Part shown: positions 13,683-34,446 of the stretch, in pieces
Position numbering within the stretch: the first letter of the stretch is position 1
Layout: every line of letters starts with the position of its first letter
Notes under the pieces: generated by a model
What the model saw: the letters and a program-made list of their open reading frames with translations, nothing else
The model's database searches: none
What the model was told of the DNA's origin: nothing
Origin: Ruminococcus sp. zg-924
Lineage (GTDB): Bacteria > Bacillota > Clostridia > Oscillospirales > Acutalibacteraceae
Length of the DNA stretch: 64,000 bases
Assembly: GCF_024433635.1 (NCBI RefSeq)
Contig: NZ_WNJZ01000001.1
Span: 62,001-126,000, forward strand
Reading direction: 5' to 3'
Program-made: the position numbers and the translations under genes

Positions 13683-13754
13683 ACGAATTGGACTGAGAAG
13701 TCAATATTTTTGTATGTGTTTATTGATGCACAAAATTTACAGGAGGTAATTCCA

Positions 13755-16379
13755 ATGGGCAAAAAGTATGTTTATTTGTTCAAAGAGGGTAACGGAAAGA
13801 TGAGAGAGCTTCTCGGCGGTAAGGGTGCAAACCTTGCTGAGATGACGAACCTTGGCTTGCCGGTACCGCAGGGCTTCACAATCACAACAGAGGCCTGCAC
13901 ACAGTACTATGAGGACGGCAAGAAGATCAACGATGAGATTCAGGCTGAAATCATGGAGTACATCACAAAGATGGAAGAAATCACAGGCAAGAAGTTCGGC
14001 GACACAGAGAACCCGCTTCTCGTTTCTGTTCGTTCAGGTGCCAGAGCTTCAATGCCGGGCATGATGGATACAATTCTTAACCTTGGTCTTAACGAAACAG
14101 TTGTTGAGGTTATGGCTGCTAAGTCAGGTAACCCACGCTGGGCTTGGGACTGCTACAGAAGATTTATTCAGATGTATTCCGACGTTGTTATGGAGGTCGG
14201 CAAAAAGTACTTCGAGGAGCTCATCGACAAGATGAAGGCTGAGAAGGGCGTTACACAGGATACAGAGCTTACAGCAGAGGATCTTAAGACTCTTGCTGAG
14301 CAGTTTAAGGCTGAATATAAAGAGAAAATCGGCGAAGAGTTCCCAACTGATCCTAAGGAGCAGCTCATGGGCGCTATCAAGGCTGTTTTCCGTTCATGGG
14401 ACAACCCGAGAGCAAACGTATATCGCCGTGATAACGATATCCCGTATTCATGGGGTACCGCAGTTAACGTACAGATGATGGCTTTCGGTAACTTGGGCGA
14501 AACATCAGGTACCGGCGTTGCATTTACACGTGACCCGGCAACAGGCGAAAAGCACCTTATGGGTGAGTTCCTTATGAACGCTCAGGGTGAGGACGTTGTT
14601 GCAGGCGTTAGAACACCGCAGAAGATTGATCAGCTCAAGGAGGTTATGCCTGAGGTTTACGATCAGTTCGTAGGCATCTGCAACACTCTTGAGAATCATT
14701 ACAGAGATATGCAGGATATGGAGTTCACAATTGAGGACAAGAAGCTCTATATGCTCCAGACACGTAACGGTAAGAGAACAGCACAGGCTGCTCTTAAGAT
14801 TGCTTGTGACCTTGTTGACGAGGGTATGATTACAGAGCAGGAAGCTGTTTTGATGATTGACCCAAGAAACCTCGACACACTTCTCCACCCGCAGTTCGAT
14901 GCTAAGGCTCTTAAGGCAGCTGAGCCGGTTGCTAAGGCTCTTGCAGCTTCTCCGGGTGCAGCTTGCGGTAAGATTGTATTCACAGCTGAGGACGCTAAGG
15001 AGTGGAACGCTAAGGGTGAGAAGGTTGTTCTTGTTCGTCTTGAGACTTCACCTGAGGATATCGAGGGTATGAAGGCTTCTCAGGGTATCCTGACAGTTCG
15101 TGGCGGTATGACATCACACGCAGCCGTTGTTGCTCGTGGTATGGGTACTTGCTGTGTATCAGGCTGCTCAGAAATCGTTATGGACGAGGCTAACAAGAAG
15201 TTCACACTCGCCGGCAAAGAGTACCACGAGGGCGACTTCCTTTCAATAGACGGTTCAACAGGTAAGATTTATGACGGCATCATTCCGACAGTTGACGCTC
15301 AGATTGCCGGCGAATTCGGCAGAATTATGGAGTGGGTTGACAAGTACAGAGTTCTTAAGGTTAGAACAAACGCTGACACACCGGCTGACGCTAAGAAGGC
15401 TCGTGAGCTTGGCGCAGAGGGTATCGGTCTTTGCCGTACAGAGCATATGTTCTTCGAGGGTGACAGAATTGACGCATTCCGTGAGATGATTTGCTCAGAT
15501 ACAGTAGAGGAGAGAGAGGCTGCTCTCAACAAGATTCTCCCAATTCAGCAGGGCGACTTTGAGGCTCTTTATGAGGCTCTTGAGGGCAACCCGGTTACAA
15601 TTCGTTTCCTCGATCCGCCGCTTCACGAGTTCGTTCCGACAGAAGAGGCTGACATTGAGCTTCTTGCAAAGGCACAAGGCAAGACAGTTGAGCAGATTAA
15701 GGCTATCATTGCTTCTCTCCACGAGTTTAACCCGATGATGGGTCACCGTGGCTGCCGTCTTGCAGTAACATATCCTGAAATTGCAAAGATGCAGACAGCT
15801 GCTGTTATCCGTGCAGCTATCAATGTTAAGAAGGCTCATCCGGACTGGAACATTGTTCCTGAGATTATGATTCCGCTTGTTGGTGAGGTTAAGGAGCTTA
15901 AGTACGTTAAGGATGTTGTTGTTGCAACAGCTGACGCTGAAATTGCAGCAGCAGGCGCTGAGCTTAAGTATGAAGTTGGTACAATGATCGAAATTCCGAG
16001 AGCTGCTCTTACAGCTGACGATATCGCTAAGGAAGCTGAGTTCTTCTGCTTCGGTACTAACGACCTTACTCAGATGACATACGGCTTCTCACGTGACGAC
16101 GCAGGCAAGTTCCTCGGTGCTTACTACGATGCTAAGATCTTTGAGAATGATCCGTTCGCAAAGCTCGACCAGACAGGCGTTGGCAAGCTTATGGAAATGG
16201 CAATTAAGCTTGGTAAGTCAGTTCGTCCTGAGATGCACCTTGGCATCTGCGGCGAGCATGGCGGCGACCCGTCTTCTGTTGAGTTCTGCCACAAGATTGG
16301 TCTTGACTATGTATCTTGCTCACCGTTTAGAGTTCCTATTGCTCGTCTTGCAGCAGCACAGGCAGCACTTAAGGGTTAA
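13755..16379 (+). CDS. ppdK: pyruvate, phosphate dikinase
   Basis: Reversible conversion of pyruvate, ATP and Pi to PEP, AMP and PPi. In anaerobes it often replaces pyruvate kinase or serves gluconeogenesis. 874 residues, the normal length. In order: nucleotide-binding domain (LLGGKGANLAEMTNLGLPVP, then SVRSGARASMPGMMDTILNL), the central phosphohistidine domain (GGMTSHAAVVARGMGTCCVSGC, with the catalytic His in TSHAA), and the PEP/pyruvate TIM barrel (GLCRTEHMFF, PMMGHRGCRLAVTYPEI, ending with the CGEHGGDPSS loop carrying the catalytic Cys). A potential start 15 codons upstream has no ribosome-binding site, while AGGAGG sits 8 nt before the ATG at 13755. Codon use is strongly biased, as in highly expressed genes. 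Confidence 0.98.
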   Translation: MGKKYVYLFKEGNGKMRELLGGKGANLAEMTNLGLPVPQGFTITTEACTQYYEDGKKINDEIQAEIMEYITKMEEITGKKFGDTENPLLVSVRSGARASMPGMMDTILNLGLNETVVEVMAAKSGNPRWAWDCYRRFIQMYSDVVMEVGKKYFEELIDKMKAEKGVTQDTELTAEDLKTLAEQFKAEYKEKIGEEFPTDPKEQLMGAIKAVFRSWDNPRANVYRRDNDIPYSWGTAVNVQMMAFGNLGETSGTGVAFTRDPATGEKHLMGEFLMNAQGEDVVAGVRTPQKIDQLKEVMPEVYDQFVGICNTLENHYRDMQDMEFTIEDKKLYMLQTRNGKRTAQAALKIACDLVDEGMITEQEAVLMIDPRNLDTLLHPQFDAKALKAAEPVAKALAASPGAACGKIVFTAEDAKEWNAKGEKVVLVRLETSPEDIEGMKASQGILTVRGGMTSHAAVVARGMGTCCVSGCSEIVMDEANKKFTLAGKEYHEGDFLSIDGSTGKIYDGIIPTVDAQIAGEFGRIMEWVDKYRVLKVRTNADTPADAKKARELGAEGIGLCRTEHMFFEGDRIDAFREMICSDTVEEREAALNKILPIQQGDFEALYEALEGNPVTIRFLDPPLHEFVPTEEADIELLAKAQGKTVEQIKAIIASLHEFNPMMGHRGCRLAVTYPEIAKMQTAAVIRAAINVKKAHPDWNIVPEIMIPLVGEVKELKYVKDVVVATADAEIAAAGAELKYEVGTMIEIPRAALTADDIAKEAEFFCFGTNDLTQMTYGFSRDDAGKFLGAYYDAKIFENDPFAKLDQTGVGKLMEMAIKLGKSVRPEMHLGICGEHGGDPSSVEFCHKIGLDYVSCSPFRVPIARLAAAQAALKG

Positions 16380-16722: not shown

Positions 16723-17619
16723 TTAGTTTAATTTTATAAGAAACTTTTGAAGCTTTAATGCGTCAAGTAAATTGGTGCTTGCGTCACGGTTTACATCGGA
16801 ACATCGAAGAGCAAGCTCGTCGAAGGTTACTGCATTGTTTGCGTACTTCTGGATTAAAATGGCGTCTACAAGATCTACATATCCGTTTTTGTTAGCATCG
16901 CCAATCGTAAGGCCTGTGAAAGGCTGTCCTGTTACTCCGCCGCCGCTTGAACTAACTAATGGCGATGAATAGCAATAATCTGTTGTAAAGTATACCGGTT
17001 CGCCAATGTTTGTGCTTACATAAATTTCAACATAGCCGTTCTTGTCGGGCTGCGCTGCGGTAATAGCGCCTCCGCTGTAGAAAATCAGCGATGAGGTGTA
17101 GCCGGTGTTAAATTCCTTTGTGAAATTATATTCGTGCGGAGTATTGTTTGTCATCTTAACATATGTGCCATTTGCGGTAAAGTAATCCGAACCCTTGTTC
17201 AGATTTATTCTTACCTTTTGGTATAAACCGCCGGTATGGGTGAAGTTTAAGTTGGTGTTTATTGAGCCACTGCTGTTATTAAGCTTGGTGTCGGCAGAAT
17301 ATCCCGCCGCACTTGGCAAGTACTGGGTAACGGAGCCGTAGGAAGTGTTGAAGTATTGGCTGAGAACTACCTGTCCGGTAGATAGGTCGGTGAATTCAAC
17401 ACCTGAGGTTGGGTCAATACGATTACCGCTTGTGTAGAACTTAACGTAGTTATCGGGAAGGTTTTCTTCTGCTAAAACTTTGTAGCCATAGAAAAAGTCA
17501 TCAAAGGTAATGCCGGACTCAATATCTTCTTTTGACTGTGCTGCGGAAAACGAAGTTATGCTCGTTGCAGCTAAAGCAGCGCACAGAATTGATGATACTA
17601 CTATCTTTTTCATTTTCAT
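16723..17619 (-). CDS. secreted dockerin protein with unassigned beta-rich module (paralogue 1 of 3)
   Basis: 298 residues. A Sec signal peptide (MKMKKIVVSSILCAALAATS, cut near SFSAA) is followed by a module of about 200 residues shared with the next two genes, but the most divergent copy. It retains the blocks VKFYTSGNRIDP, GGLYQKVRINLNKGSDYF, EYNFTKEFNTGYTSSLIFYS, and GGAITAAQPDKNGYVEIYVS. A Gly/Ser linker leads to a C-terminal type I dockerin with two calcium loops, DANKNGYVDLVD and DVNRDASTNLLD; the second loop has Ala-Ser where Gly is usual. Dockerins bind cohesins on scaffoldins, so the protein is probably displayed on a cell-surface complex. I do not recognise the N-terminal module as a known glycosidase or carbohydrate-binding module. 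Confidence 0.85.
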   Translation of the reverse strand: MKMKKIVVSSILCAALAATSITSFSAAQSKEDIESGITFDDFFYGYKVLAEENLPDNYVKFYTSGNRIDPTSGVEFTDLSTGQVVLSQYFNTSYGSVTQYLPSAAGYSADTKLNNSSGSINTNLNFTHTGGLYQKVRINLNKGSDYFTANGTYVKMTNNTPHEYNFTKEFNTGYTSSLIFYSGGAITAAQPDKNGYVEIYVSTNIGEPVYFTTDYCYSSPLVSSSGGGVTGQPFTGLTIGDANKNGYVDLVDAILIQKYANNAVTFDELALRCSDVNRDASTNLLDALKLQKFLIKLN

Positions 17620-17663
17620 TTTTAAAATCTCCTTGTTTCTTTATTATCCAAACATTGTATTGT

Positions 17664-17692
17664 ATTTTACCATACTAAAGTGGCGAATTCAA
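17664..17692 (-). promoter_or_regulatory. promoter for dockerin paralogue 1
   Basis: On the minus strand, TTGAAT (17692-17687), 17 bp, then an extended -10 TGGTAAAAT (-10 hexamer at 17669-17664). It lies about 45 nt upstream of the ATG at 17619, so this gene can be transcribed separately from the two other dockerin genes. Confidence 0.6.
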
Positions 17693-17774
17693 TTATTAAT
17701 ACGCCGAGATTATGTTGAGTAAAGTGAATAAATATGTATAAATTGTGAATTTTTTGCAATTCTTGGATATATCA

Positions 17775-17821
17775 TAAAAGTAAATGGGCTGCTGTATGAA
17801 AGAGTATCATACCGCAGCTCT
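17775..17821 (-). terminator. terminator after dockerin paralogue 2
   Basis: A 14-bp stem with one mismatch, GGGCTGCTGTATGA (17786-17799) with TCATACCGCAGCTC (17807-17820), lies 30 nt past the stop of the 17850 gene. The minus-strand tail is AT-rich (ATTTACTTTTATG). It separates the two-gene dockerin operon from paralogue 1. Confidence 0.7.
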
Positions 17822-17849
17822 GTTTTGTTGAGGTATATGATTTAATTGT

Positions 17850-18683
17850 TTATTCAATACCCAAATTATATTTTTGAACCTTAATTACATCTATAAGATT
17901 TATGTTTCCGTCAAAGTTAACGTCTGCATTACGTGATGAAAGCTTATCAAGGGTTGTCAAGTTCAGCGTTTTTTTCTGAATCAGAATTGCGTCATTAAGA
18001 TAAATTTCGCCGTTTTTGTCAATATCTCCGATTGTGAAGCCGCAGAAGGGGGCGCCGCTTCTTCCGCCGCCTCCGGAGTGTTTATATCTGAAGTTTGTCA
18101 TATAAGATGTTTTTACACCCAGCTTCTTGCTTACGTGAATCTCAACCATACCGTTTTTATCGGGAGCCGCCGCTGTTATAGCCCCGCCGCTTATGAAAAC
18201 CAACGACGAATAGTAATTGTGGCTTTCCTTTGTGAAGTTGTAGTCATGCACATCACCGAAAAGCTCCTGTGTGTGTGTTCCGTTACTGTTAAAGTAATCT
18301 GAAAAGTCAGAAAGCTTTACCTTGATTTTTTCGTATATGCCGTCTGTATTGGTAAAATTTATGAGAGAGTAGCGCGAGCCGCAACCGTCTGAAAGGTAGT
18401 GATAACCTTTAGCGTTTGGCAAGCGTACGGGAAAAAAGTCAGACGTAAAATTAAAATCCTGCGAATGGATTAATTGATAGGTATTAATGTCGTAGAACGA
18501 AAATTCAAGCGATTCAGGAATGTTTGTGCCGGACTTGAAAAAGTAAGCTTGATTTTTATTCAATTTTATTGAGTTTAAAACAGTGTAGTTTGGTGAAGAT
18601 GAAGTGTCGGCTGCAGAAGCTGTTGCAATGCTTGTTGCCGCCAAAACAGCGCATAGCAGCGCAGATAGAATTCTTTTTTTCAT
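17850..18683 (-). CDS. secreted dockerin protein with unassigned module (paralogue 2 of 3)
   Basis: 277 residues. The signal peptide MKKRILSALLCAVLAATSIA is cut near TASAA. The shared module contains QAYFFKSGTNIPESLEFSF, LPNAKGYHY, YEKIKVKLSDFSDYFNSNGT, HDYNFTKESHNYYSSLVFIS and GGAITAAAPDKNGMVEIHVS. The Gly-rich linker GGGGRSG precedes a C-terminal type I dockerin (DIDKNGEIYLND and DVNFDGNINLID). The start lies 16 nt after the stop of paralogue 3 with AAAGGA before the ATG, so the two form an operon. Function of the module is unknown; a secreted adhesive, binding or structural role within a cohesin-dockerin complex is inference. Confidence 0.87.
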   Translation of the reverse strand: MKKRILSALLCAVLAATSIATASAADTSSSPNYTVLNSIKLNKNQAYFFKSGTNIPESLEFSFYDINTYQLIHSQDFNFTSDFFPVRLPNAKGYHYLSDGCGSRYSLINFTNTDGIYEKIKVKLSDFSDYFNSNGTHTQELFGDVHDYNFTKESHNYYSSLVFISGGAITAAAPDKNGMVEIHVSKKLGVKTSYMTNFRYKHSGGGGRSGAPFCGFTIGDIDKNGEIYLNDAILIQKKTLNLTTLDKLSSRNADVNFDGNINLIDVIKVQKYNLGIE

Positions 18684-18699
18684 ATGTTTAATTCCTTTA

Positions 18700-19566
18700 T
18701 TATTTTATTGCATATTTCTGAACGGCTATTGCGTCGAGAAGATTAACTTTGCCGTTCTGGTTGGCGTCTGCGTTACGTTTTGAAAGGCTGTCAAAGCTGC
18801 TCAAGTCAAGTATGTATTTCTGGATTAATATAGCGTCAGAAAGCCTTACGCTGCCGTTTTTGTCAACGTCACCGATAGTAAGTCCGGTAAAATCAGTGCC
18901 GGCAGTTCCGGTGCGGCTTTCCATATCTGTGGAGGAGGTGTATGAAAAGCTTGTAATAAACGTGGTCTTTTCGCCAAGCTTTGTGCTTACATATATTTCA
19001 GCCATACCGGCGATATCGGGTGCTACGGAAGTCATAGCGCCGCCGCTGATAAATACCAGTGAAGAGGAATATCCGTTGCCCTCGTCAGAAAAATTGAAAT
19101 AGTGCTTGTTTCCGAGAATGGTTGCTTCACGTTTTCCGTTGCTCATAAAATAGTCGGAAAAATCGGAAAGCTTTAGCCTAATTTTTTGATACTTTCCGCC
19201 TGCCTGAGTTAGGTTGATAACACGGCTGAGACTGCCGCCGCCGTTAACACGATAATGATAGCCGTTTGGATCAGGAAGATAGCATGACGTAGATTCGCCG
19301 CTAAAATCAAACTTCTGTTTAAGAACCGTCTCTCCGGTGTTTACATTGCGGAACTCCGCAACGGTATCATTCGGCAGATTTGCCCCGCTCTTAAAGAAAT
19401 ATGAGTAGTTATTTTGGAGTGCTTCTGATTTTAGAATTATGTAATTTGATGATGATGATGAGGCAACGGCTTCATTTTTTTCTATCGGCTGAGCTGCCGA
19501 AGATGACGTAACGCTTAACGCTGCTAAAGCAGCGCATAGGATTGACGTGATAATTTTCTTATTCAT
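18700..19566 (-). CDS. secreted dockerin protein with unassigned module (paralogue 3 of 3)
   Basis: 288 residues. A signal peptide (MNKKIITSILCAALAALSVT) is followed by a Ser-rich stretch, then the shared module: YSYFFKSGANLPNDTVAEF, LPDPNGYHYRVNGGG, YQKIRLKLSDFSDYFMSNGK, HYFNFSDEGNGYSSSLVFIS, GGAMTSVAPDIAGMAEIYVS. A short linker leads to a type I dockerin with two good calcium loops (DVDKNGSVRLSD, DANQNGKVNLLD). It is the first gene of a two-gene operon with its own promoter. Its similarity to paralogue 2 runs along the whole length, so the cluster arose by tandem duplication. No catalytic motif is visible. Confidence 0.87.
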   Translation of the reverse strand: MNKKIITSILCAALAALSVTSSSAAQPIEKNEAVASSSSSNYIILKSEALQNNYSYFFKSGANLPNDTVAEFRNVNTGETVLKQKFDFSGESTSCYLPDPNGYHYRVNGGGSLSRVINLTQAGGKYQKIRLKLSDFSDYFMSNGKREATILGNKHYFNFSDEGNGYSSSLVFISGGAMTSVAPDIAGMAEIYVSTKLGEKTTFITSFSYTSSTDMESRTGTAGTDFTGLTIGDVDKNGSVRLSDAILIQKYILDLSSFDSLSKRNADANQNGKVNLLDAIAVQKYAIK

Positions 19567-19601: not shown

Positions 19602-19630
19602 ATTATAGCACTGTGAAAAAGTAACTTCAA
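19602..19630 (-). promoter_or_regulatory. promoter for the two-gene dockerin operon
   Basis: On the minus strand, TTGAAG (19630-19625), 17 bp, then an extended -10 TGCTATAAT (hexamer at 19607-19602). The predicted leader is about 30 nt, with GAAAGGATG as ribosome-binding site before the ATG at 19566. Confidence 0.7.
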
Positions 19631-19719: not shown

Positions 19720-19753
19720 AGATAAAAAAGACTCCCACTAATTGTAGGAGCCT
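19720..19753 (-). terminator. terminator of the activase operon
   Basis: On the minus strand, CTCCTAC-loop-GTGGGAG is followed by TCTTTTTT, 16 nt after the stop at 19769. Confidence 0.8.
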
Positions 19754-19768
19754 TTGCTGTAAGGTATT

Positions 19769-21055
19769 TTAATTTTTGTTCTTTTCAAGCTCCGCGTGCA
19801 TATTTTCTTTTGCAACAGCAAGCATAAGCTTGATTCTGTTTTCCTGGTTAACTCTCGGTGCGCCGGGGTCATAGTCGATTGCAACAATGTTTGCACGGTC
19901 GTCTATGCTCTTGATTTTTCTTATCATACCCTTGCCACAAATGTGGTTTGGCAGACAGCCAAACGGCTGAGTGCAGACAATGTTCGGGTAGCCTGTTTCT
20001 GTAAGCTCCAGCATCTCGGCTGTTAAGAGCCAGCCTTCGCCCATTTTGCTGCCATAGCCGATAACACCTTTAACAAGTTCTTTTGTGTGGCTGTATTTTC
20101 CGGGAGGAGTAAAGCCGTACTTTGCGGTGCATTTTATCATCATAGATTCCATTTTTTCAAGGTAATCGTAGAGAATCTTAATAACCTTGTACTTTATCAT
20201 ATTGCCGCCGTAAAGCTTGATATCCTCAAGACGGTTGTCAACCTTGAACAGAGCAAAGCCCATAATGCCCGGTACGCAAACCTCGCAGTCCTGCTCGGCG
20301 AGGAACTGCTCAAGGTTGTTGTTGCCAAGCGGCGCATATTTAACGTATATCTCGCCGACAACGCCGACCTTTACCTTTGGCACACGGTTGAGCTTAAGCT
20401 CGCTGAAGTCCTTGGCGATTTTATCAAGAATTGCCTCCTGTTCCTTCGCAGCAAAGCCTCTGCCGTTTTTGAACATCTTTGTCAGTTTGTCGCTCCAACT
20501 TTGAACAAGAGCCATACTCTCGCCCTTGTTTACCTCATACGGTTTTGTCTGGTTGCTCAGGCACATAAGAGTGTCACCGTAAACAAGTGCGCCTACAAGA
20601 CGACGAATCATTGGAAGTGAAAGAGAAAAGCCGCTGTTCTTTTCAAGACCTGAAAGGTTGAGGGAAACAACCGGAACAAATTCAAGCCCCGCTTTTTTCA
20701 GAGCCTTTCTGAGCAGGTGAATGTAGTTTGACGCACGGCAACCGCCGCCTGTTTGAGTTATCATAAGTGCGGTCTTGTGCAGGTCATATTTTCCGCTTTG
20801 CAGTGCGTGGATAAACTGCCCGATAACAAGAAGAGCAGGATAGCAGGTGTCGTTGTGAACATATTTTAAGCCAACCTGAGCAATTTCGGGGCCGCTTGTT
20901 TCAAGAAGCACCGTTTTGTAGCCATACATATCAAATACGTTTCTCATCAGTCGGAACTGAATAGACGCCATCATAGGCAGAAGAATTGTGTATTCCTCCT
21001 TCATCTCTTTTGTGAAGAGGAGCCTGCCTGTTTTATCATATTCTAATTTAGCCAT
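19769..21055 (-). CDS. activase-associated protein (CoA dehydratase/DUF2229-like C-terminal part)
   Basis: 428 residues. It matches the C-terminal portion of the very large clostridial 2-hydroxyacyl-CoA dehydratase activase-type proteins (about 1400 residues). Conserved Cys-containing segments include VHNDTCYPALLVIGQF and ITQTGGGCRASNYIHLL, likely metal or iron-sulfur ligands, plus TQPFGCLPNHICGKGM. Here the protein is encoded separately, 21 nt downstream of the gene for the ASKHA ATPase part, so the two products probably form one complex. The physiological substrate of this widespread family is not established. The ribosome-binding site is a GGAATGA before the ATG at 21055. Confidence 0.75.
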   Translation of the reverse strand: MAKLEYDKTGRLLFTKEMKEEYTILLPMMASIQFRLMRNVFDMYGYKTVLLETSGPEIAQVGLKYVHNDTCYPALLVIGQFIHALQSGKYDLHKTALMITQTGGGCRASNYIHLLRKALKKAGLEFVPVVSLNLSGLEKNSGFSLSLPMIRRLVGALVYGDTLMCLSNQTKPYEVNKGESMALVQSWSDKLTKMFKNGRGFAAKEQEAILDKIAKDFSELKLNRVPKVKVGVVGEIYVKYAPLGNNNLEQFLAEQDCEVCVPGIMGFALFKVDNRLEDIKLYGGNMIKYKVIKILYDYLEKMESMMIKCTAKYGFTPPGKYSHTKELVKGVIGYGSKMGEGWLLTAEMLELTETGYPNIVCTQPFGCLPNHICGKGMIRKIKSIDDRANIVAIDYDPGAPRVNQENRIKLMLAVAKENMHAELEKNKN

Positions 21056-21076
21056 TTATATCATTCCTTTAAGCAG

Positions 21077-23998
21077 TCAGATTTTGTTCTTTGCTTCTCT
21101 TTGCTCTTCAACGGCAGCAAGCAGGCTTCTGAGCCTTATCTTGACTGCGCCTAAGTTTGTGATTTCATCGATTTTAATCTGCGTGTATATCTTGCCCTCT
21201 GATTCGAGGATTGCTCTTACCTCGTCGGTTGTGATTGCGTCAACGCCGCAGCCGAAGGAAACAAGCTGAACAAGGTTCATATCGTCCCTGCCTGCTATAT
21301 ATTTTGCTGCCGCATAAAGGCGGGAGTGATATGTCCACTGATTTAAAACAGTGGTCGGGAACTTGTCAACATTGCAGCTAACGACGTCCTCTGAAACGAT
21401 TGCAACACCGAAGCCTGCAATCAGTTTGTCGATACCCTTGTTAATTTCAGGGTCAACGTGGTATGGCCTGCCGGACAGCACGATAATGTCCTTGCCCTCT
21501 TTTTCTGCCTGAGCGATAATCTGCTCGCCCTTTGTGCGGATTTTTTTCATATGGCTGTCATATTCCTCATATGCAGCCTTTGCCGCCGCCTTAACTTCCT
21601 TAATGGTTATGCCATCGAAGTATTTATTTAGCATCTCACAAGCCTTTTTCGGAAAGTCCTTTTTGCGGTGTATACCAAGGTATTCCTTTATAAATGTAAT
21701 TTTCTTGATGTCTTTCATATTTGCGGCGATAACCTCTGGGTAATATGCAACAACAGGACAGTTGTAGTGGTTGTCGCCTAAGCCCTCGTCAAGGTTGTAG
21801 GAAAGACAGGGGTAGAAGATTGTGTCACAGCCGCTGTCAATAAGCGTTTGGATGTGCCCGTGAACAAGCTTTGCAGGATAGCAGACTGTATCTGACGGGA
21901 TTGTCTGCTGACCCTTTGCGTAGAGCTTTCTGTCGGAAACAGGCGAAGCAGAAACCTCAAAGCCAAGGTTTGTAAAGAAGCTGTGCCAGAACGGGAGAAG
22001 CTCATACATATTGAGCGCCATAGGTATGCCGATTTTGCCACGGTTACCCTTTATAGGCTTGTAGCTTTTAAGAAGCTCAAGCTTGTAATCGTAAATGTTT
22101 AAGGACTTATCAGGAGAACGCTTTGTGATTGGGCGTTCACAGCGGTTGCCGCCGATGAATTTTCTGCCGTCAGCAAATTTATTAACTGTTAAGCGGCAGT
22201 TGTTTGAGCAAAGTCCACAGGACACAACCTGTATTTCGTGCTTAAAGCCTTGAAGTTGTTCAGGAGTTAAAATTGAACTCTTTCCTGCCTTGTCTTTTGA
22301 CATTGCATAAAGCGCAGCGCCGTATGCTCCCATAAGACCTGATATTGTCGGACGAACAACCTGTGTGTTCATTTCTTTTTCAAATGCACGAAGAACAGCG
22401 TCGTTTAAGAACGTGCCGCCCTGAACAACAATTTTTCTGCCAAGCTCATCGGGGGAGGATGCTCTTATTACTTTATAGAGTGCATTTTTAACTACGCTGA
22501 CGGACAAACCTGCTGAAATATCCTCTATTGTAGCTCCGTCCTTCTGAGCTTGCTTTACAGAGCTGTTCATAAATACGGTACAGCGTGAGCCAAGGTCAAC
22601 AGGCTGCTTTGCGAAAAGCCCAAGTTTTGCAAAGTCGTCTATCTTGTAGCCGAGTGCGTTTGCAAAGGTCTGTAAAAACGAGCCGCAGCCTGACGAGCAA
22701 GCCTCGTTTAAGAAGAGGTTGTCGATTGCGCCGTTGTGTATTTTAAAGCATTTAATATCCTGTCCGCCAATGTCAATAACAAACTCAACGTCCGGCATAA
22801 AGCGTTTTGCTGCTGTGAAGTGTGCGATTGTTTCAACAATGCCGTAATCATAGCAGAACGCATTTTTTATGATTTCCTCGCCGTAGCCTGTTACTGCGCT
22901 TGCGGCTATGTCTATATCAGGAGCAGCTGCGTACAGCTCCTCTAAAAATTCTTTGATTAGCGGAACAGGGTTGCCGCTGTTCGGCTGATATTTTGAATAC
23001 AAAAGCTCTCCGTTTTCGCCCATTACAACGGACTTAACGGTTGTAGAGCCTGCATCTGTTCCGACAAATACCTTACCCTTGTAGCTCTTAAGGTCGCCCT
23101 GTTCAACGGTAGCTGAGCTGTGGCGGCGTGAAAACTCGTCATACTCCGCCTGATTTTCAAATAACGGTTTATTAAAGGCAAAGTTGCCGCTGCCGTTGTA
23201 GTGCTTAACGGCGTCAATTATTTTGTCAAAGTCTATTGTGTTTTCTGCACATAATGCCGCACCCGAAGCAACGAAGAAAAGCGAATTTTCAGGGCATATG
23301 CCGTTTGTGTTAAGAACCATATCAAAACGTCTGCGCAGACGGCTCATAAATGTAAGAGGACCGCCAAGGTACACTACCTTGCCTTCAATTTCCCTTCCCT
23401 GAGCAAGTCCTGCAACGGTTTGATTGACAACTGCCGCAAATATGCTTTCAGCAATGTCGCTCTTTCTTGCACCTTGATTCAAAAGCGGCTGTATATCAGT
23501 TTTCGCAAAAACTCCGCAGCGGCTTGCTATTGTGTAGATTTTTTCGCTTTGAGCTGCAAGCTCGTCCATTTTTTCAAGAGGAACATTTAGCAGAGTTGCC
23601 ATCTGGTCTATGAATGCGCCCGTGCCGCCGGCACAGGAACCGTTCATACGAACCTCCATACCGCCTGTAAGGAAGAGTATTTTTGCATCTTCGCCGCCAA
23701 GCTCAATTATTACATCAGTGCCGGGGATAAAGGTGTTTGCGGCAACTCTTGTAGCGTAAACCTCCTGCACAAAGTCGATGCCGCATTTGTCGGCAACACC
23801 CATACCTGCGCTGCCGGAAATTGCAACAAGAGCATTTTCACTGCCACTGATCTCGTTTCTTACACGCTCAAGTATTTCGGCAATCTTGCTTGTTATCTGA
23901 GAGTAGTGCCGCTCGTAGGTGCTGTATTTTATTTCGTTTTTATCGTCCAGAACAACGCATTTTACCGTTGTTGAACCTATATCCAAACCAATTCGCAA
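21077..23998 (-). CDS. BadF/BadG/BcrA/BcrD-type ATPase activase, tandem ATPase domains plus DUF2229-like region
   Basis: About 973 residues. Two ASKHA ATPase domains occur in tandem: the first starts LRIGLDIGSTTVKCVVLDD, with ELGGEDAKILFL and NGSCAGGTGAFID; the second starts at about 320 with GTDAGSTTVKSVVMG, with DIGGQDIKCFKI and EACSSGCGSFLQTFA. The Cys residues in CAGGTGAF and CSSGCGSF match the ligands of the [4Fe-4S] cluster shared by a dimer in HgdC-type activators. A DUF2229-like region follows (CGLCSNNCRLTVNKF, DTVCYPAKLVHGH). I set the start at the TTG at 23998, where an AGGAGG sits 7 nt upstream; it gives the canonical N-terminus. Such activators drive ATP-dependent electron transfer to a dehydratase or reductase; the partner here is unknown. 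Confidence 0.85.
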   Translation of the reverse strand: MRIGLDIGSTTVKCVVLDDKNEIKYSTYERHYSQITSKIAEILERVRNEISGSENALVAISGSAGMGVADKCGIDFVQEVYATRVAANTFIPGTDVIIELGGEDAKILFLTGGMEVRMNGSCAGGTGAFIDQMATLLNVPLEKMDELAAQSEKIYTIASRCGVFAKTDIQPLLNQGARKSDIAESIFAAVVNQTVAGLAQGREIEGKVVYLGGPLTFMSRLRRRFDMVLNTNGICPENSLFFVASGAALCAENTIDFDKIIDAVKHYNGSGNFAFNKPLFENQAEYDEFSRRHSSATVEQGDLKSYKGKVFVGTDAGSTTVKSVVMGENGELLYSKYQPNSGNPVPLIKEFLEELYAAAPDIDIAASAVTGYGEEIIKNAFCYDYGIVETIAHFTAAKRFMPDVEFVIDIGGQDIKCFKIHNGAIDNLFLNEACSSGCGSFLQTFANALGYKIDDFAKLGLFAKQPVDLGSRCTVFMNSSVKQAQKDGATIEDISAGLSVSVVKNALYKVIRASSPDELGRKIVVQGGTFLNDAVLRAFEKEMNTQVVRPTISGLMGAYGAALYAMSKDKAGKSSILTPEQLQGFKHEIQVVSCGLCSNNCRLTVNKFADGRKFIGGNRCERPITKRSPDKSLNIYDYKLELLKSYKPIKGNRGKIGIPMALNMYELLPFWHSFFTNLGFEVSASPVSDRKLYAKGQQTIPSDTVCYPAKLVHGHIQTLIDSGCDTIFYPCLSYNLDEGLGDNHYNCPVVAYYPEVIAANMKDIKKITFIKEYLGIHRKKDFPKKACEMLNKYFDGITIKEVKAAAKAAYEEYDSHMKKIRTKGEQIIAQAEKEGKDIIVLSGRPYHVDPEINKGIDKLIAGFGVAIVSEDVVSCNVDKFPTTVLNQWTYHSRLYAAAKYIAGRDDMNLVQLVSFGCGVDAITTDEVRAILESEGKIYTQIKIDEITNLGAVKIRLRSLLAAVEEQREAKNKI

Positions 23999-24329
23999 GG
24001 GAATCCCTCCTAAAATTGCAAAGTCATAAGTCTTCAATATACTATTATATTATAATCGGTAAGAAGATTAATTCTTTTAAAAAATTAAAACCTTGTATAA
24101 GCCTATTATGCAGAATTTCTGACACTGTGTCAATAAATAAATTGTGAATAAAAGGCTGATTGTCCTAATGTAAATCAGGGAAAAATCCGTGTACTCAATA
24201 ATATCACTTTTGCTCTGCAAAATCTTTGGCTTTTACAAGTGTTCACAGTAATTTTACAACTTTTATTTTTGACAAGTTTATGGTAAAATGAATGTACTAT
24301 GATAAATAATTTTGAGCGGAGAAGGCAAT
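23999..24329. other. divergent intergenic region, activase versus rRNA methyltransferase
   Basis: No gene is supported. Overlapping TATAAT hexamers on the minus strand at about 24044-24054 may serve the activase operon. On the plus strand a TTGACA at 24269-24274 could be a -35 for the methyltransferase gene, but the best -10 candidates are badly spaced. Confidence 0.4.
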
Positions 24330-29276: not shown

Positions 29277-29317
29277 AAAAATAAAAAGTAATGTTTATAA
29301 TAAGGAGGACTAAGTAT

Positions 29318-31765
29318 ATGAAAAAACTATTAAAACGCTGTACTGCCGTGGTTATGTCGGCATTAATGGCGGCAAGCGTTATTTGCGCAGGTGCAGTCGG
29401 TACAGCAGCGCTTGACACGGACACAAAAAAGGTTTTACCGTTGGGTGTGTCAAGTGACTGTCTTGCAGCTGTTGCATCCGGCAGGGGAGATATACACGTT
29501 GCTTCATCTGCTCAGGATGACAGTTACTATGAATATTACGTTAAAAGTGACGGCAGCGCCGAAATAGTTAATTTTGTAGGTGATATAGACTACGTTTATG
29601 TTCCCGACGAGCTTAACGGCGTAATTGTTACAAGCATTGGCGATACAGCTTTTTACGACAACACTTCTTTATCGGAAATAACACTACCCAAAAGCGTTGT
29701 CAGTATTGGAAATTATGCGTTTGCGGGATGTACAAATCTTATGCTTGTAAGCATTCCTGAATCAAAGCTGAAAAGTGTCGGCAACTTTGCTTTCGCCGGT
29801 TGCAGTTATTTGGACCATATAGAAGACTGGAGCAGTAATATTGAGTTTGTAGGTGAACGTGCTTTTGATGATACATTATGGTATAAATCTAACAGTGCCG
29901 GACCGGTGTATCTTGGAAAAGTGGTTATAGGCTATATCGGCGATATGAAGGTCAACGCAAAGATTGCGATTAAAGACGGTACTAAAGGCATTGCAAGCGC
30001 AGCTTTTGCCAACTTTACAAATCTTGCAAGCGTATCAATTCCGGAGAGCGTAAAAAATATCGGTGAAGCGGCGTTTGTCGGTTGTACCTCTCTTAAAGAA
30101 ATCTCATTTCCGAGCAGTATTACAAGAATGGGTGCAGGAGCGTTCTTTGATACAGCATGGTATAGTAATCAGCCGGACGGTATGATTTATATTGGCGACA
30201 TTGCATACGGTTACAAGGGTGAGATGCCGGCAAATACAAAAATAACAATTAAAGACGGCACAAGACTTGTTGCCGGACTTGCATTTTACGGTCAGCTTAA
30301 TCTTAAGTCGGTTGTCCTGCCTGAGTCTGTTCAGGTTATAGATGAGCTTGCGTTTTATTATGCGGAGAATCTGAGCAGTATAAATATTCCTAACAGTGTA
30401 ACAACAATCGGAGCTCTGGCGTTTTGCGCCTGTGATTCGCTTAAAACGGTGAAGTTACCTAAAACGGTTAGAACAATCGAGAACATTGCATTTGGCTATG
30501 ACATAAACGAAGAATCGGGTCAGATTGAGCAGGCGTCAGGCTTTACTGTTCAGGGCTATAATAACACAGAAGCGCAGTTTTACTGTGAGACTTTCGGAGT
30601 CAGCTTTAAAAGCCTTGGTACGGTTAAGGCAACGGGCGTTAAGCTAAACAAGACGTCAATGACAATGGGTATTCATGAGGAATACACATTAGCTGCAACC
30701 GTTTCGCCAAGCTATGTTAATCAGAATGTCAGTTGGAGCAGCAGTAACACAAGCGTTGCTCAAGTATCAAAAAGCGGAAGAATTACGGCAAAGTCAACGG
30801 GAACAGCAACTATTACCGCAAAAAAGGACGGCAAAACGGCCACCTGCAAAATAACCGTAAAGAAAGCGCCGACATCAATTACTCTAAATGCGTCAAGAAT
30901 TACGCTTGAAATAGGCGAAACCTTTGACCTGAACAGCTCGCTTCCAAGCGGACAAGCATCTTATGCAATTTATTACACAAGCGACAATTCGAGCGTAGCA
31001 AGCGTTAAAAAGGCAGGCGGCTTGGTAACTGCCGTTTCAGTGGGTGAAGCGACTGTTACTGCGACAACCTATAACGGCTTGACAGCAAGCTGTAAGGTAG
31101 CCGTTAAAATGCCGCTGATATACGGCGATTTGAATAAGGACGGCAAGGTGAACCTCAGGGACGCTATTGAAATACAAAAAATAAGCTTGTCGATGATTGA
31201 GCTTAACGAGGATAAAAGCAAGTGCGGCGACGTTGACAAAAACGGAAGAGTCAACCTGCTTGACAGTATATATGTTCAGAAATATGCCGCAAATATGAAT
31301 CCGGGTATAAGCGGAATAGGCGAAAAGGTTCCTGCTACTGAGCCGGTCGAGCCTTCAACAGACCCTGATATTCCAAGCAGCGACTATAACTTAAAATACG
31401 CAAGCGAGGTAATCAGTCTGGTAAATGCTGAAAGAAGCAAGGTTGAGCTTTCGCCGCTTACACAGAGGAGCGATGTAACAGAGGTTGCTCAGATTAGGGC
31501 TGAGGAAATTTCAAGGGTGTTTTCGCACACAAGGCCGAACGGAAGCGATTGCTTTACATTGATAGAAGAAAATAACATACAATGGAGAACAGTTGGAGAG
31601 AATATTGCGGCGGGACAAAGCACACCGCAGGAGGTAATGAATTCGTGGATGAATTCTCAGGGACATCGGGAGAATATATTAAATCCCGAATTCAACGGTA
31701 TAGGCGTTGCCTGCTTTAAGAAAGACGGTATTTTGTATTGGACGCAAATGTTTATCTGCGCTTAG
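29318..31765 (+). CDS. secreted BspA-type LRR, Big2, internal dockerin and C-terminal CAP-domain protein
   Basis: 815 residues. Signal peptide (MKKLLKRCTAVVMSALMAAS), then BspA/LRR_5 repeats at about 85-430 (for example TLPKSVVSIGNYAFAGCTNL, SIPESVKNIGEAAFVGCTSL). Two Big2 Ig-like domains follow at about 435-597 (VKLNKTSMTMGIHEEYTLAA, then ITLNASRITLEIGETFDLN). A type I dockerin lies at about 598-663 (loops DLNKDGKVNLRD and DVDKNGRVNLLD). After a Pro/Thr/Asp linker comes a CAP/SCP domain at about 690-815 (VNAERSKVELSPL, SHTRPNGSDCFT, VGENIAAG, GHRENILNPEFNGIGVAC). Dockerins usually sit at a terminus; here it is internal. BspA repeats often bind host or cell-surface ligands. The ATG at 29318 is chosen for its ribosome-binding site and signal peptide. 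Confidence 0.9.
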   Translation: MKKLLKRCTAVVMSALMAASVICAGAVGTAALDTDTKKVLPLGVSSDCLAAVASGRGDIHVASSAQDDSYYEYYVKSDGSAEIVNFVGDIDYVYVPDELNGVIVTSIGDTAFYDNTSLSEITLPKSVVSIGNYAFAGCTNLMLVSIPESKLKSVGNFAFAGCSYLDHIEDWSSNIEFVGERAFDDTLWYKSNSAGPVYLGKVVIGYIGDMKVNAKIAIKDGTKGIASAAFANFTNLASVSIPESVKNIGEAAFVGCTSLKEISFPSSITRMGAGAFFDTAWYSNQPDGMIYIGDIAYGYKGEMPANTKITIKDGTRLVAGLAFYGQLNLKSVVLPESVQVIDELAFYYAENLSSINIPNSVTTIGALAFCACDSLKTVKLPKTVRTIENIAFGYDINEESGQIEQASGFTVQGYNNTEAQFYCETFGVSFKSLGTVKATGVKLNKTSMTMGIHEEYTLAATVSPSYVNQNVSWSSSNTSVAQVSKSGRITAKSTGTATITAKKDGKTATCKITVKKAPTSITLNASRITLEIGETFDLNSSLPSGQASYAIYYTSDNSSVASVKKAGGLVTAVSVGEATVTATTYNGLTASCKVAVKMPLIYGDLNKDGKVNLRDAIEIQKISLSMIELNEDKSKCGDVDKNGRVNLLDSIYVQKYAANMNPGISGIGEKVPATEPVEPSTDPDIPSSDYNLKYASEVISLVNAERSKVELSPLTQRSDVTEVAQIRAEEISRVFSHTRPNGSDCFTLIEENNIQWRTVGENIAAGQSTPQEVMNSWMNSQGHRENILNPEFNGIGVACFKKDGILYWTQMFICA
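31111..31325. repeat. 215-bp direct repeat, copy 1 (dockerin-encoding)
   Basis: Matches 34215-34429 with only two differences in 215 bases, in the same reading frame. It encodes the whole dockerin and the segment ending NPGISGIGE. Confidence 0.95.
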
Positions 31766-31833
31766 ACTGCTTGCGGATTTACGGTATTATATAATAAGAG
31801 GAGATAGAGTGAGAGTAAAGGGAGAAATAGCAT

Positions 31834-34446
31834 ATGAGGAAAATGCTTAAAAGCTGTATAGTGAAGGTGTTGTCGCTTTTGATGACAGCAAGCGTATTGT
31901 TGGCTGCACCGATTACAGCAGGCGCTTTTGAGGCTTCAGAAAATACGCGGAATAGTGCGGCGTCACAGAGTACGATAAAAGTATCTGCCGCTGAAATAGA
32001 TTTAAATGGAGCGTATAACGCCATTCAAGGTGCTCTTGACATTGCAAAGAACAATGCAACCGCCGATAATGTATATAAGGTTATTGTGGAAAAGGGAGAG
32101 TACGTTATCGGCAGAAGTCTTAAGATTTACAGCAACACCTATCTATCACTTACCGGAGTAACTCTTGTGCGTGACAGCAGTTGTGCCGCAAATATAATAA
32201 GAACGGGCAGCAACGACAGCGCCGACACAGGCGTTACCGGTTACAGAGCATATACCAACATTACGATAGACGGCGGAACTCTTGACGGTAGCTGTACAAG
32301 AAATACTATTATAAAATTTGCCCACGCTACAAATATAACACTTATCAATCAGACGCTTAAAAATGTTGATAACGGACATATAATGGAGGTTGCAGGTGTT
32401 GATGGCCTGACAATTAAGAATTGTGACTTTTCAAATCAGGTTCTTACACCGTCGTCTTCTCTTGAGGGCTACGAGGCAATTCAGCTTGACGTTCTTGTGC
32501 AGTCGCATTTTCCGGGGTACAGGTCAGAGGATATTCCGATGAAAAATGTTTTAATAGAGGAGTGCAGCTTTAGCGAGTGCCCGAGAGGAATCGGAAGTCA
32601 TACTGCTATACTCAACAATCCATTTGACGGCATTAAGATAAAAAACTGTACCTTTAACAATATGAGCAGTGTTGCAATTCAGGGGCTAAACTGGATTAAT
32701 TGTGAAATTACGGGAAATAAAATTGACAATGCCCCAAGAGGTATAGCCGTGTATTCGGTAATGAATGAGGGAAAAGGAGTTTATAACGCAAGCTACCTTG
32801 CCTCTGAGGGAAAGACGACGGCGCACGTTACTGATAAATATACGGAAAATAAAAATCAGAATATCCTGATAGCTGATAACGAGCTTAGCAGATGCGGCTA
32901 TATTAATGATAAATATGCCGTGTATGAATCCGGCGGAATATTTGCGATAGGTTATGACATTCCAAAGGTTTATGCCCAAAATTCTAAGGACCACAGCGGT
33001 GGAATTGCCAAGGGAAATTACTACATAAGCGGCGTTACAGTCAGGGATAACATAATTGATGTAAAGGGGCACGGTGTTCGCTTTGTGGACACAAGAGCAT
33101 CCTCGGTAAAATCAAACACAATATTATGCTCTGAAAATACCCTTAACAAAGCGAACTATCACGGAATACAGGTGCTTGAAGGCAAAGCGGACCTAATAAG
33201 TGGAAACAGCATTAAAAATTCAAGCGTAAACGGAATTTATGTTTATAAAAACAGCAATGTTACCGAAATAAGCAACAACACTGTGAAAAACTCAAATAAC
33301 TACGGTATCAGTGTTGACAACGCTGTTGCAGGGAAGATATATAACAACATAATTGACTCAACCGCATCAAACGGTATACACGCTTCACACGGCGGCAGTA
33401 TCAGAGAGATAAACGGAAATACTATAAACAATGCAGGTAACCACGGAATAAGCATTACAAGCGGGTCAAGCGCCGCTAATGCGGGAAATATAATTAACAA
33501 TACGGTTTACAAGGCGTTATCAAACGGCATTAATGTTTCAAGCGGCGCAGGCGCAGGCGACATAAAGGGCAATTTCTTATCCTACTCAGGAAATCACGGA
33601 ATAAGCGTAACAGGAGCTTCAAGCGCAGGCACAATTTCCGAAAATGTTATCTTTGGCAGCGGCGGAAAGATGGTGAATGTCAGCGGCGACAGCAAAGCGA
33701 CTGTGGGTGCGAACAGCAGCTCAATAGACGCTTTGTCCATTACCTTGAATAAAACATCCATAACCCTGGGCGAAGGGGAAAATTACACCTTAACTGAAAC
33801 TGTAACTCCGTCAAACACAACATCAACAATTGTTTGGAGCAGCAGCAACGCCGGCGTAGCAACGGTAGATCAAACAGGAAAGGTTACAGCAAGAGCAACG
33901 GGAACTGCGAAAATAACGGTTAAGACTGATAACGGAAAGACAGCAAGCTGTGCTGTAACCGTAAAGAAAGCGCCAACCTCAATTGCTCTAAATGCGACAA
34001 GCCTTACGCTTGGAATAGGCGAAACCTTTGACCTGAACAGCTCGCTTTCAAACGGTGAGGGTGCGTACCATATTACATATTCAAGCGACAATCCGAGTGT
34101 AGCAAGCGTAAAGAGTGCCGGTGGCTTGGTAACTGCCGTTTCAGCTGGCGAAGCGACCATTACGGCAACAACCTATAACGGTGTAACAACCAACTGTAAG
34201 GTGAAGGTTAAAACGCCGCTGATATACGGCGATTTGAATAGGGACGGCAAGGTAAACCTCAGGGACGCTATTGAAATACAAAAAATAAGCTTGTCGATGA
34301 TTGAGCTTAACGAGGATAAAAGCAAGTGCGGCGACGTTGACAAAAACGGAAGAGTCAACCTGCTTGACAGTATATATGTTCAGAAATATGCCGCAAATAT
34401 GAATCCGGGTATAAGCGGAATAGGCGAAATTATCCCTGCTGCATAG
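31834..34446 (+). CDS. secreted right-handed beta-helix protein with Big2 domains and C-terminal dockerin
   Basis: 870 residues. Signal peptide (MRKMLKSCIVKVLSLLMTAS, cut near ITAGAFE), then a parallel beta-helix at about 50-630. The first part looks like a pectate-lyase/polysaccharide-lyase fold (ITIDGGTLDGSCTRNTIIKF, VEKGEYVIGRSLKIYSNTYL). It is followed by many PbH1 rungs of the form NGIxV...I..N.I..S.. (around residues 455-620). Two Big2 domains follow (about 630-790), then a terminal type I dockerin (DLNRDGKVNLRD, DVDKNGRVNLLD). Beta-helix proteins of this kind are lyases, epimerases or binding proteins; I cannot point to catalytic residues. It lies 68 nt after the LRR-dockerin gene, with GGAGAAAT before the ATG, and may be co-transcribed. 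Confidence 0.88.
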   Translation: MRKMLKSCIVKVLSLLMTASVLLAAPITAGAFEASENTRNSAASQSTIKVSAAEIDLNGAYNAIQGALDIAKNNATADNVYKVIVEKGEYVIGRSLKIYSNTYLSLTGVTLVRDSSCAANIIRTGSNDSADTGVTGYRAYTNITIDGGTLDGSCTRNTIIKFAHATNITLINQTLKNVDNGHIMEVAGVDGLTIKNCDFSNQVLTPSSSLEGYEAIQLDVLVQSHFPGYRSEDIPMKNVLIEECSFSECPRGIGSHTAILNNPFDGIKIKNCTFNNMSSVAIQGLNWINCEITGNKIDNAPRGIAVYSVMNEGKGVYNASYLASEGKTTAHVTDKYTENKNQNILIADNELSRCGYINDKYAVYESGGIFAIGYDIPKVYAQNSKDHSGGIAKGNYYISGVTVRDNIIDVKGHGVRFVDTRASSVKSNTILCSENTLNKANYHGIQVLEGKADLISGNSIKNSSVNGIYVYKNSNVTEISNNTVKNSNNYGISVDNAVAGKIYNNIIDSTASNGIHASHGGSIREINGNTINNAGNHGISITSGSSAANAGNIINNTVYKALSNGINVSSGAGAGDIKGNFLSYSGNHGISVTGASSAGTISENVIFGSGGKMVNVSGDSKATVGANSSSIDALSITLNKTSITLGEGENYTLTETVTPSNTTSTIVWSSSNAGVATVDQTGKVTARATGTAKITVKTDNGKTASCAVTVKKAPTSIALNATSLTLGIGETFDLNSSLSNGEGAYHITYSSDNPSVASVKSAGGLVTAVSAGEATITATTYNGVTTNCKVKVKTPLIYGDLNRDGKVNLRDAIEIQKISLSMIELNEDKSKCGDVDKNGRVNLLDSIYVQKYAANMNPGISGIGEIIPAA
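34215..34429. repeat. 215-bp direct repeat, copy 2 (dockerin-encoding)
   Basis: See the copy at 31111-31325. The two base differences give one K-to-R change and one silent change. Confidence 0.95.

Follow-up and report, generated by a model that had tools for sequence, protein, structure and literature searches.

Three adjacent secreted dockerin proteins of Ruminococcus sp. zg-924 and the family of their shared module, a candidate for display outside the cell

Many dockerin proteins of gut bacteria that bear cellulosomes or amylosomes have no known function; Ruminococcus flavefaciens FD-1 has 118 such proteins (PMC2930009). The genes of FD-1 include a four-gene tandem, ORF02170-ORF02173, each product of which consists of a signal peptide, an unknown module and a group 4a dockerin (PMC2930009). 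In R. flavefaciens, group 4 dockerins, that of ScaH among them, bind the cohesin of the wall-anchored ScaE (PMC5301203).

Genes of this kind are found in Ruminococcus sp. zg-924, a gut bacterium that degrades starch, in a stretch of 64,000 nucleotides (the window) of contig NZ_WNJZ01000001.1. Three neighbouring minus-strand genes, transcribed from position 19566 down to 16723, encode proteins of 288, 277 and 298 amino acids according to the list of open reading frames. The original prediction, made from the letters of the window, had described, for each of three adjacent genes, a signal peptide followed by a module and, at the C-terminus, a type I dockerin; the reading frames and a Pfam Dockerin_1 match in every product agree with this. 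The features are as follows.

18700..19566, minus strand: gene 1, signal peptide, module and type I dockerin, 288 amino acids (reading frame, Dockerin_1 with E 6.9e-11, alignment)
18928..19455, minus strand: module of gene 1, 176 amino acids (alignments)
18703..18882, minus strand: type I dockerin of gene 1 (Pfam and dockerin alignments)
17850..18683, minus strand: gene 2, signal peptide, module and type I dockerin, 277 amino acids (reading frame, Pfam)
18069..18602, minus strand: module of gene 2 (alignments)
17862..18038, minus strand: type I dockerin of gene 2 (Pfam and dockerin alignment)
16723..17619, minus strand: gene 3, signal peptide, module and type I dockerin, 298 amino acids (reading frame, Pfam)
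16957..17502, minus strand: module of gene 3 (alignments)
16732..16911, minus strand: type I dockerin of gene 3 (Pfam and dockerin alignment)
19602..19630, minus strand: promoter-like TTGAAG-17-TATAAT with TG preceding the second hexamer, upstream of gene 1 (pattern match only)
19727..19755, minus strand: terminator-like hairpin of 12 pairs with a T run, after the upstream activase-related gene (pattern match only)

The trio, its dockerins and the host amylosome

On one side of the trio (13710-16379, plus strand) is a gene for pyruvate phosphate dikinase, and on the other an activase/dehydratase-type pair at 19769-24037; these names were given by eye. The hairpin at 19755-19727 together with the promoter-like site at 19630-19602 suggests separate transcription, and the three genes probably form a unit of their own. 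A gap of 16 bases separates genes 1 and 2, which are probably co-transcribed; the gap between genes 2 and 3 measures 230 bases and contains a promoter-like sequence. On reading the sequence, all three signal peptides are lysine-rich, hydrophobic and of the SxA type.

Pfam Dockerin_1 (PF00404) matches each C-terminus above the curated cut-off, with E-values of 6.9e-11, 2.1e-6 and 1.8e-8 for genes 1, 2 and 3. The assignment to type I holds, both calcium loops being essentially intact in all three copies and the repeats aligning with their Asp/Asn ligands; in the gene 3 dockerin the second loop reads DVNRDASTNLLD, where the Gly at loop position 6 is replaced by Ala. The trio dockerins are nearest one another (identity 0.51-0.59), while their identity to other dockerins of the same genome reaches 0.55 and that to the dockerin of an Amy16-like amylase is 0.50.

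The host assembly of 2.2 Mb contains 34 dockerin matches and 8 cohesin matches over the cut-off (PF00963). Cohesins are thus encoded in the genome, as a role in a cohesin-dockerin complex presupposes, and the trio dockerins have candidate sockets. The dockerin proteins of the genome include GH13-CBM26, CBM48-GH13-MucBP-CBM26 and CBM26-CBM26 types as well as LRR, CHAP, CotH, GH25 and transglutaminase-like ones. The presence of dockerin-bearing GH13 and CBM26 proteins marks the system as a Ruminococcus bromii-like amylosome. One dockerin protein is related to R. bromii Amy16 (PDB 9qf9, E 1.4e-105) and far from identical to it; the amylosome-type system is therefore that of a relative and not demonstrably that of R. 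bromii itself.

Dockerin genes lie side by side at other places too. At 29291-34446 of the window (plus strand), two adjacent genes carry near-identical dockerins and Ig-like repeats; one product is of the LRR type and has a CAP-like tail behind its dockerin, and the other resembles a right-handed beta-helix, the non-dockerin domains having been named by eye. At a further locus (L025, 3996-9216), neighbouring LRR/Big_2 and CHAP/ricin-lectin proteins end in the same cohesin and dockerin pair, apparently a duplicated adaptor-scaffoldin tail.

Conservation, family searches and predicted shape of the module

When aligned to the gene 1 protein, the products of genes 2 and 3 are 50% and 46% identical over the full length, and their modules alone show 48% and 41% identity with the gene 1 module, which indicates homology rather than chance. 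The module occurs in all three proteins as predicted; its length is about 177 residues instead of the expected 200 or so. The conserved blocks, which the original prediction listed as being in the same order, are less uniform than quoted. YFFKSG is found in two of the three copies, the third having KFYTSG, and LKLSDFSDYF.SNG likewise in two, with INLNKGSDYFTANG in the remaining one. The block given as H.FNF is H[YDE][YF]NF in the trio, and SSL[VI]F.SGGA[IM]T...PD..G..EI.VS is kept in every copy. Among six close members of the family, mean identity is 26% in the N-terminal half versus 50% in the C-terminal half.

Searches of Pfam, NCBIfam and the PDB sequences with a single module and with profiles of 5 and 26 rows gave no credible match. 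None of the 26 modules of the wider family matched a Pfam or NCBIfam entry above the cut-off, and thus no family of carbohydrate-binding modules (CBM) or enzymes. The expectation that the module belongs to no known family has stood up in these three resources, relative to which the family is, by sequence comparison, new. No module relative was found by tblastn among plasmids or in scans of viral contigs. A weak match in the host genome itself (L012, E 0.29) is unrelated to the module. Matches in four other genomes (G253, G499, G1445 and G131, E about 5e-4 to 8e-3) were rejected after inspection; by eye they are D-Ala-D-Ala carboxypeptidase-like, elongation factor G, ThiF-like and a choline-binding-repeat protein.

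Two AlphaFold2 models, each built from four sequences, present the module as all-beta with the same order of strands. Both models are poor, with a mean pLDDT of 68 for the module alone and 58 for the module with its dockerin, so structure prediction provided an all-beta outline but no confident fold match. Foldseek returned nothing below E 0.001 for either model, which does not mean a new fold, since the quality of the models is too low. Among the weak Foldseek/VIA matches, prealbumin-like pilin domains are frequent (BcpA, RrgB, FctB, SpaA, SpaC, CnaB2). The best match of this type to the module-alone model has Z 3.8 and an rmsd of 3.9 over 78 aligned residues and is tied with unrelated chains; for the second model the best pilin match has Z 3.3, again with unrelated chains tied. 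The resemblance of these models to pilin folds is weak; it agrees with the genomic context described below and proves nothing.

Close and remote relatives and the exchange of anchors

All six close members, namely the trio and one copy each from a congeneric species (G200), a rabbit-gut metagenome-assembled genome (MAG) and a human-faecal contig, have a C-terminal dockerin, and the predicted recurrent pairing with dockerins is borne out to this extent. Within the genus, a single copy was found in one of five other species, in a genome that is 74% complete. This copy occupies the same position as the trio, after an activase-type gene, and lies where a contig stops, so that the assembly could lack additional copies; a recombinase fragment directly adjoins it there (L093, 2-595). 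In two congeneric species whose contig continues past the activase-type gene, other genes are found at that position, which makes the trio accessory. In the wider taxonomic family, the module was found in 2 of 388 sampled genomes, two more weak matches having been rejected.

The copy of the rabbit-gut MAG (CANQDR010000011.1, L013, 71-8514) adjoins two SpaA pilin genes, a sortase gene and a gene for a DUF3852 protein, and the genome encodes cohesins. DUF3852 proteins of this kind are found in conjugative elements, and the locus may be an integrative element. The sixth full-length close member is on the human-faecal contig MT837882.1 (L094, 29-937). Its candidacy as a phage copy was rejected, as the record is marked UNVERIFIED and contains, besides a dihydroorotase gene, an integrase-core transposase; judged by these genes the contig looks bacterial. 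Each of the three close loci that lie outside the window has recombinase, transposase or conjugative-element-like genes as neighbours, a hint that the module loci are mobile. A secreted dockerin protein (L095, 538-1626; PF00404, E 7e-12) is also encoded by the record of Ruminococcus phage NatCom_28274 (PV036439.1), labelled as a complete phage genome, near cyclase and PycTM (Pycsar-like) genes and serine recombinases. This gene is at the start of the record and may thus be host DNA from a prophage edge.

The three copies are about 1.1-1.5 changes per site apart, as far from one another as from the copies of the congener and the rabbit-gut MAG, and in the module tree they do not group together. 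A recent triplication specific to this lineage was therefore rejected on branch lengths. Multiplication by tandem duplication, as originally proposed, holds in outline but not as a recent event: either the copying happened long ago or the whole set was acquired together.

More distant relatives came to light through the five-row profile, which had one remote match (E 2.9e-4) among 394 genomes; following it led to 14 of 397 sampled genomes from another family of the same order. The remote profile was iterated, so that later matches rest partly on earlier ones. In a separate profile-profile test (hhalign), five close modules were compared with 21 remote ones, giving a probability of 99.1 and E 9.8e-19 over 162 columns, against E 0.19-0.8 for the controls run with the close modules (a reversed profile, five column-shuffled profiles and flanks). 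The remote relatives are at 14-22% identity.

The remote proteins, of about 480-900 amino acids, begin with a signal peptide and an N-terminal region; the module comes next, in many cases with a SpaA prealbumin-like stretch behind it, and an anchor closes the chain. As anchor, 11 reading frames have a dockerin and 7 a sortase-type signal (for example NPKTG, SPATG, NPQTG or NPETG, after which come a hydrophobic stretch and a basic tail); one frame near a contig end has neither. Tandem arrays recur in these genomes, with two genes in G706, three in G1288 and three with five modules in G1216, where the dockerins are closest to the ScaH dockerin among PDB sequences (E 6.8e-14). In one remote genome, a gene that is GH11-like by eye adjoins the module gene.

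Taken over the 24 intact family members, 17 have a dockerin and 7 a sortase-type signal. The best module tree requires three anchor changes and its bootstraps three to four, a single change occurring in 0 of 200 trees, although the starred branches of the tree alone force only one. One genome with the sortase form (G595) has no cohesin match, and another (G727) has 14. The proposal of a new family of cohesin-dockerin components is therefore sustained in part: every close member is paired with a dockerin, but the family is not specific to the complex. What the members share would be display outside the cell and not membership of an enzyme complex, an idea drawn from the remote members; the same module is held by either a dockerin or a sortase anchor, which points to extracellular display as the selected property. 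It is tentatively suggested that this is a new adhesin family which moved about three times within the order between cohesin-dockerin docking and sortase anchoring, amylosomes and cellulosomes serving as a general adhesin platform; we regard this broader scenario as less likely than not.

Possible roles of the trio and comparison with known systems

The module is most likely a beta-sandwich that is extracellular and not catalytic. It probably binds or builds at the cell surface and does not act as an enzyme, because the remote relatives display it through a dockerin or a cell-wall anchor. For the trio itself, an even chance is given to the reading that these are non-catalytic, surface-displayed secreted proteins, docked on amylosome cohesins, in which the module serves adhesion or the structuring of the surface. 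Computation establishes the architecture, the homology, the two types of anchor and the cohesins of the genome; docking in the cell, surface exposure and adhesion are inferred. Each protein would be exported by Sec with removal of the signal peptide, and the calcium-dependent C-terminal dockerin would plug into cohesins of the amylosome scaffoldins or into wall-bound ones. The docking step is supported by the precedent of ScaH and ScaE and by the ScaH-like dockerins of the remote three-gene tandem in G1216. Outside the cell, the compact all-beta module would be presented, and it might make contact with particles of food, with glycans or proteins of the host, or with adjacent cells. The conserved C-terminal half of the module (Y.K..KLSD.SDYF..NG ... 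SGGA.T..APD..G..EIYVS) would be its core, and the side on which copies differ would be formed by the variable N-terminal half. It is among relatives of low identity that both anchors are seen, and the function of these may differ from that of the trio.

One alternative, rather unlikely but substantial, is that the module represents a new carbohydrate-binding type which directs the complex to starch or some other glycan, in a role like that of Sas20. Standalone carbohydrate-binding dockerin proteins of amylosomes such as Sas20 would match the trio in gene anatomy, the genome bears an amylosome, and domain 1 of Sas20 was also a sequence orphan before it was found to bind starch (PMC9112005). Further, each module has 20-30 aromatic residues, and one of the weak fold matches is to a CBM41 chain (2j72, Z 3.0). 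Against this, there is no Trp in any of the three window proteins, no Pfam CBM matched, and fusion to a catalytic domain is absent among the members scanned; the occurrence in a starch-type genome as well as in genomes of another family, one with the GH11-like neighbour, argues against a single plant polysaccharide as the target.

In another alternative the module is a spacer or stalk with a purely structural role, similar to the prealbumin-like domains of Gram-positive pilins; it would hold complexes off the wall and bind nothing. The SpaA prealbumin-like flanks of remote members (PF17802, above the cut-off in two and below it in one more) and the abundance of pilin domains among the weak matches of both models speak for it, yet the module of the trio stands alone at the dockerin tip with nothing to carry, the Z-scores remain below 4 and inspection by eye revealed no CnaB isopeptide signature; this role is improbable. 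An enzyme or inhibitor of an unrecognised kind, for instance one acting on host or competitor proteases, is very improbable, for although serpin-dockerin proteins are known from R. flavefaciens (PMC2930009) and eight polar residues are invariant in the six close members (K128, S137, N143, E162, S174, D184, E190 and S194 in gene 1 numbering), only Tyr88, Gly137, Pro145 and Gly149 (first-module numbering) are conserved in at least 90% of the 26 modules, which leaves no shared catalytic set, and no catalytic Pfam domain occurs in the 20 family members scanned. The original prediction had likewise noted no known glycosidase, esterase or protease motif.

If the broader scenario of an adhesin family that moved between the two display systems holds, amylosomes and cellulosomes would display adhesins and not only fibre-degrading enzymes. 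The recurrence of the module with either anchor points to its role, as it would be selected for a location outside the cell. The family has a conserved core and boundaries that can be expressed, and so offers a defined object for asking what non-catalytic dockerin proteins do.

Of the described systems, the SpaA/CnaB pilin and LPXTG adhesin domains (PF17802) stand beside the module in remote, sortase-anchored relatives. Most weak fold matches belong to this class, and the rabbit-gut copy adjoins pilin and sortase genes. The module itself differs from them, as PF17802 matched none of the 26 modules up to E 0.5 and the similarity in fold reaches Z 3.8 or less. Sas20 and other non-catalytic dockerin proteins of R. 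bromii are likewise secreted and belong to an amylosome-type system in a related genome (PMC9112005). No sequence relation between them and the module was found, profile searches of the PDB with the module having given nothing credible, and in Sas20 the binding of starch has been demonstrated (PMC9112005). The trio proteins are also shorter than the remote members of their own family and are without flanking domains. Compared by gene anatomy alone, they resemble the FD-1 proteins made up of a signal peptide, one or more unknown modules and a C-terminal dockerin and encoded by tandem genes; a second likeness to FD-1 runs through G1216, a remote genome in which a tandem of three reading frames bears ScaH-like dockerins.
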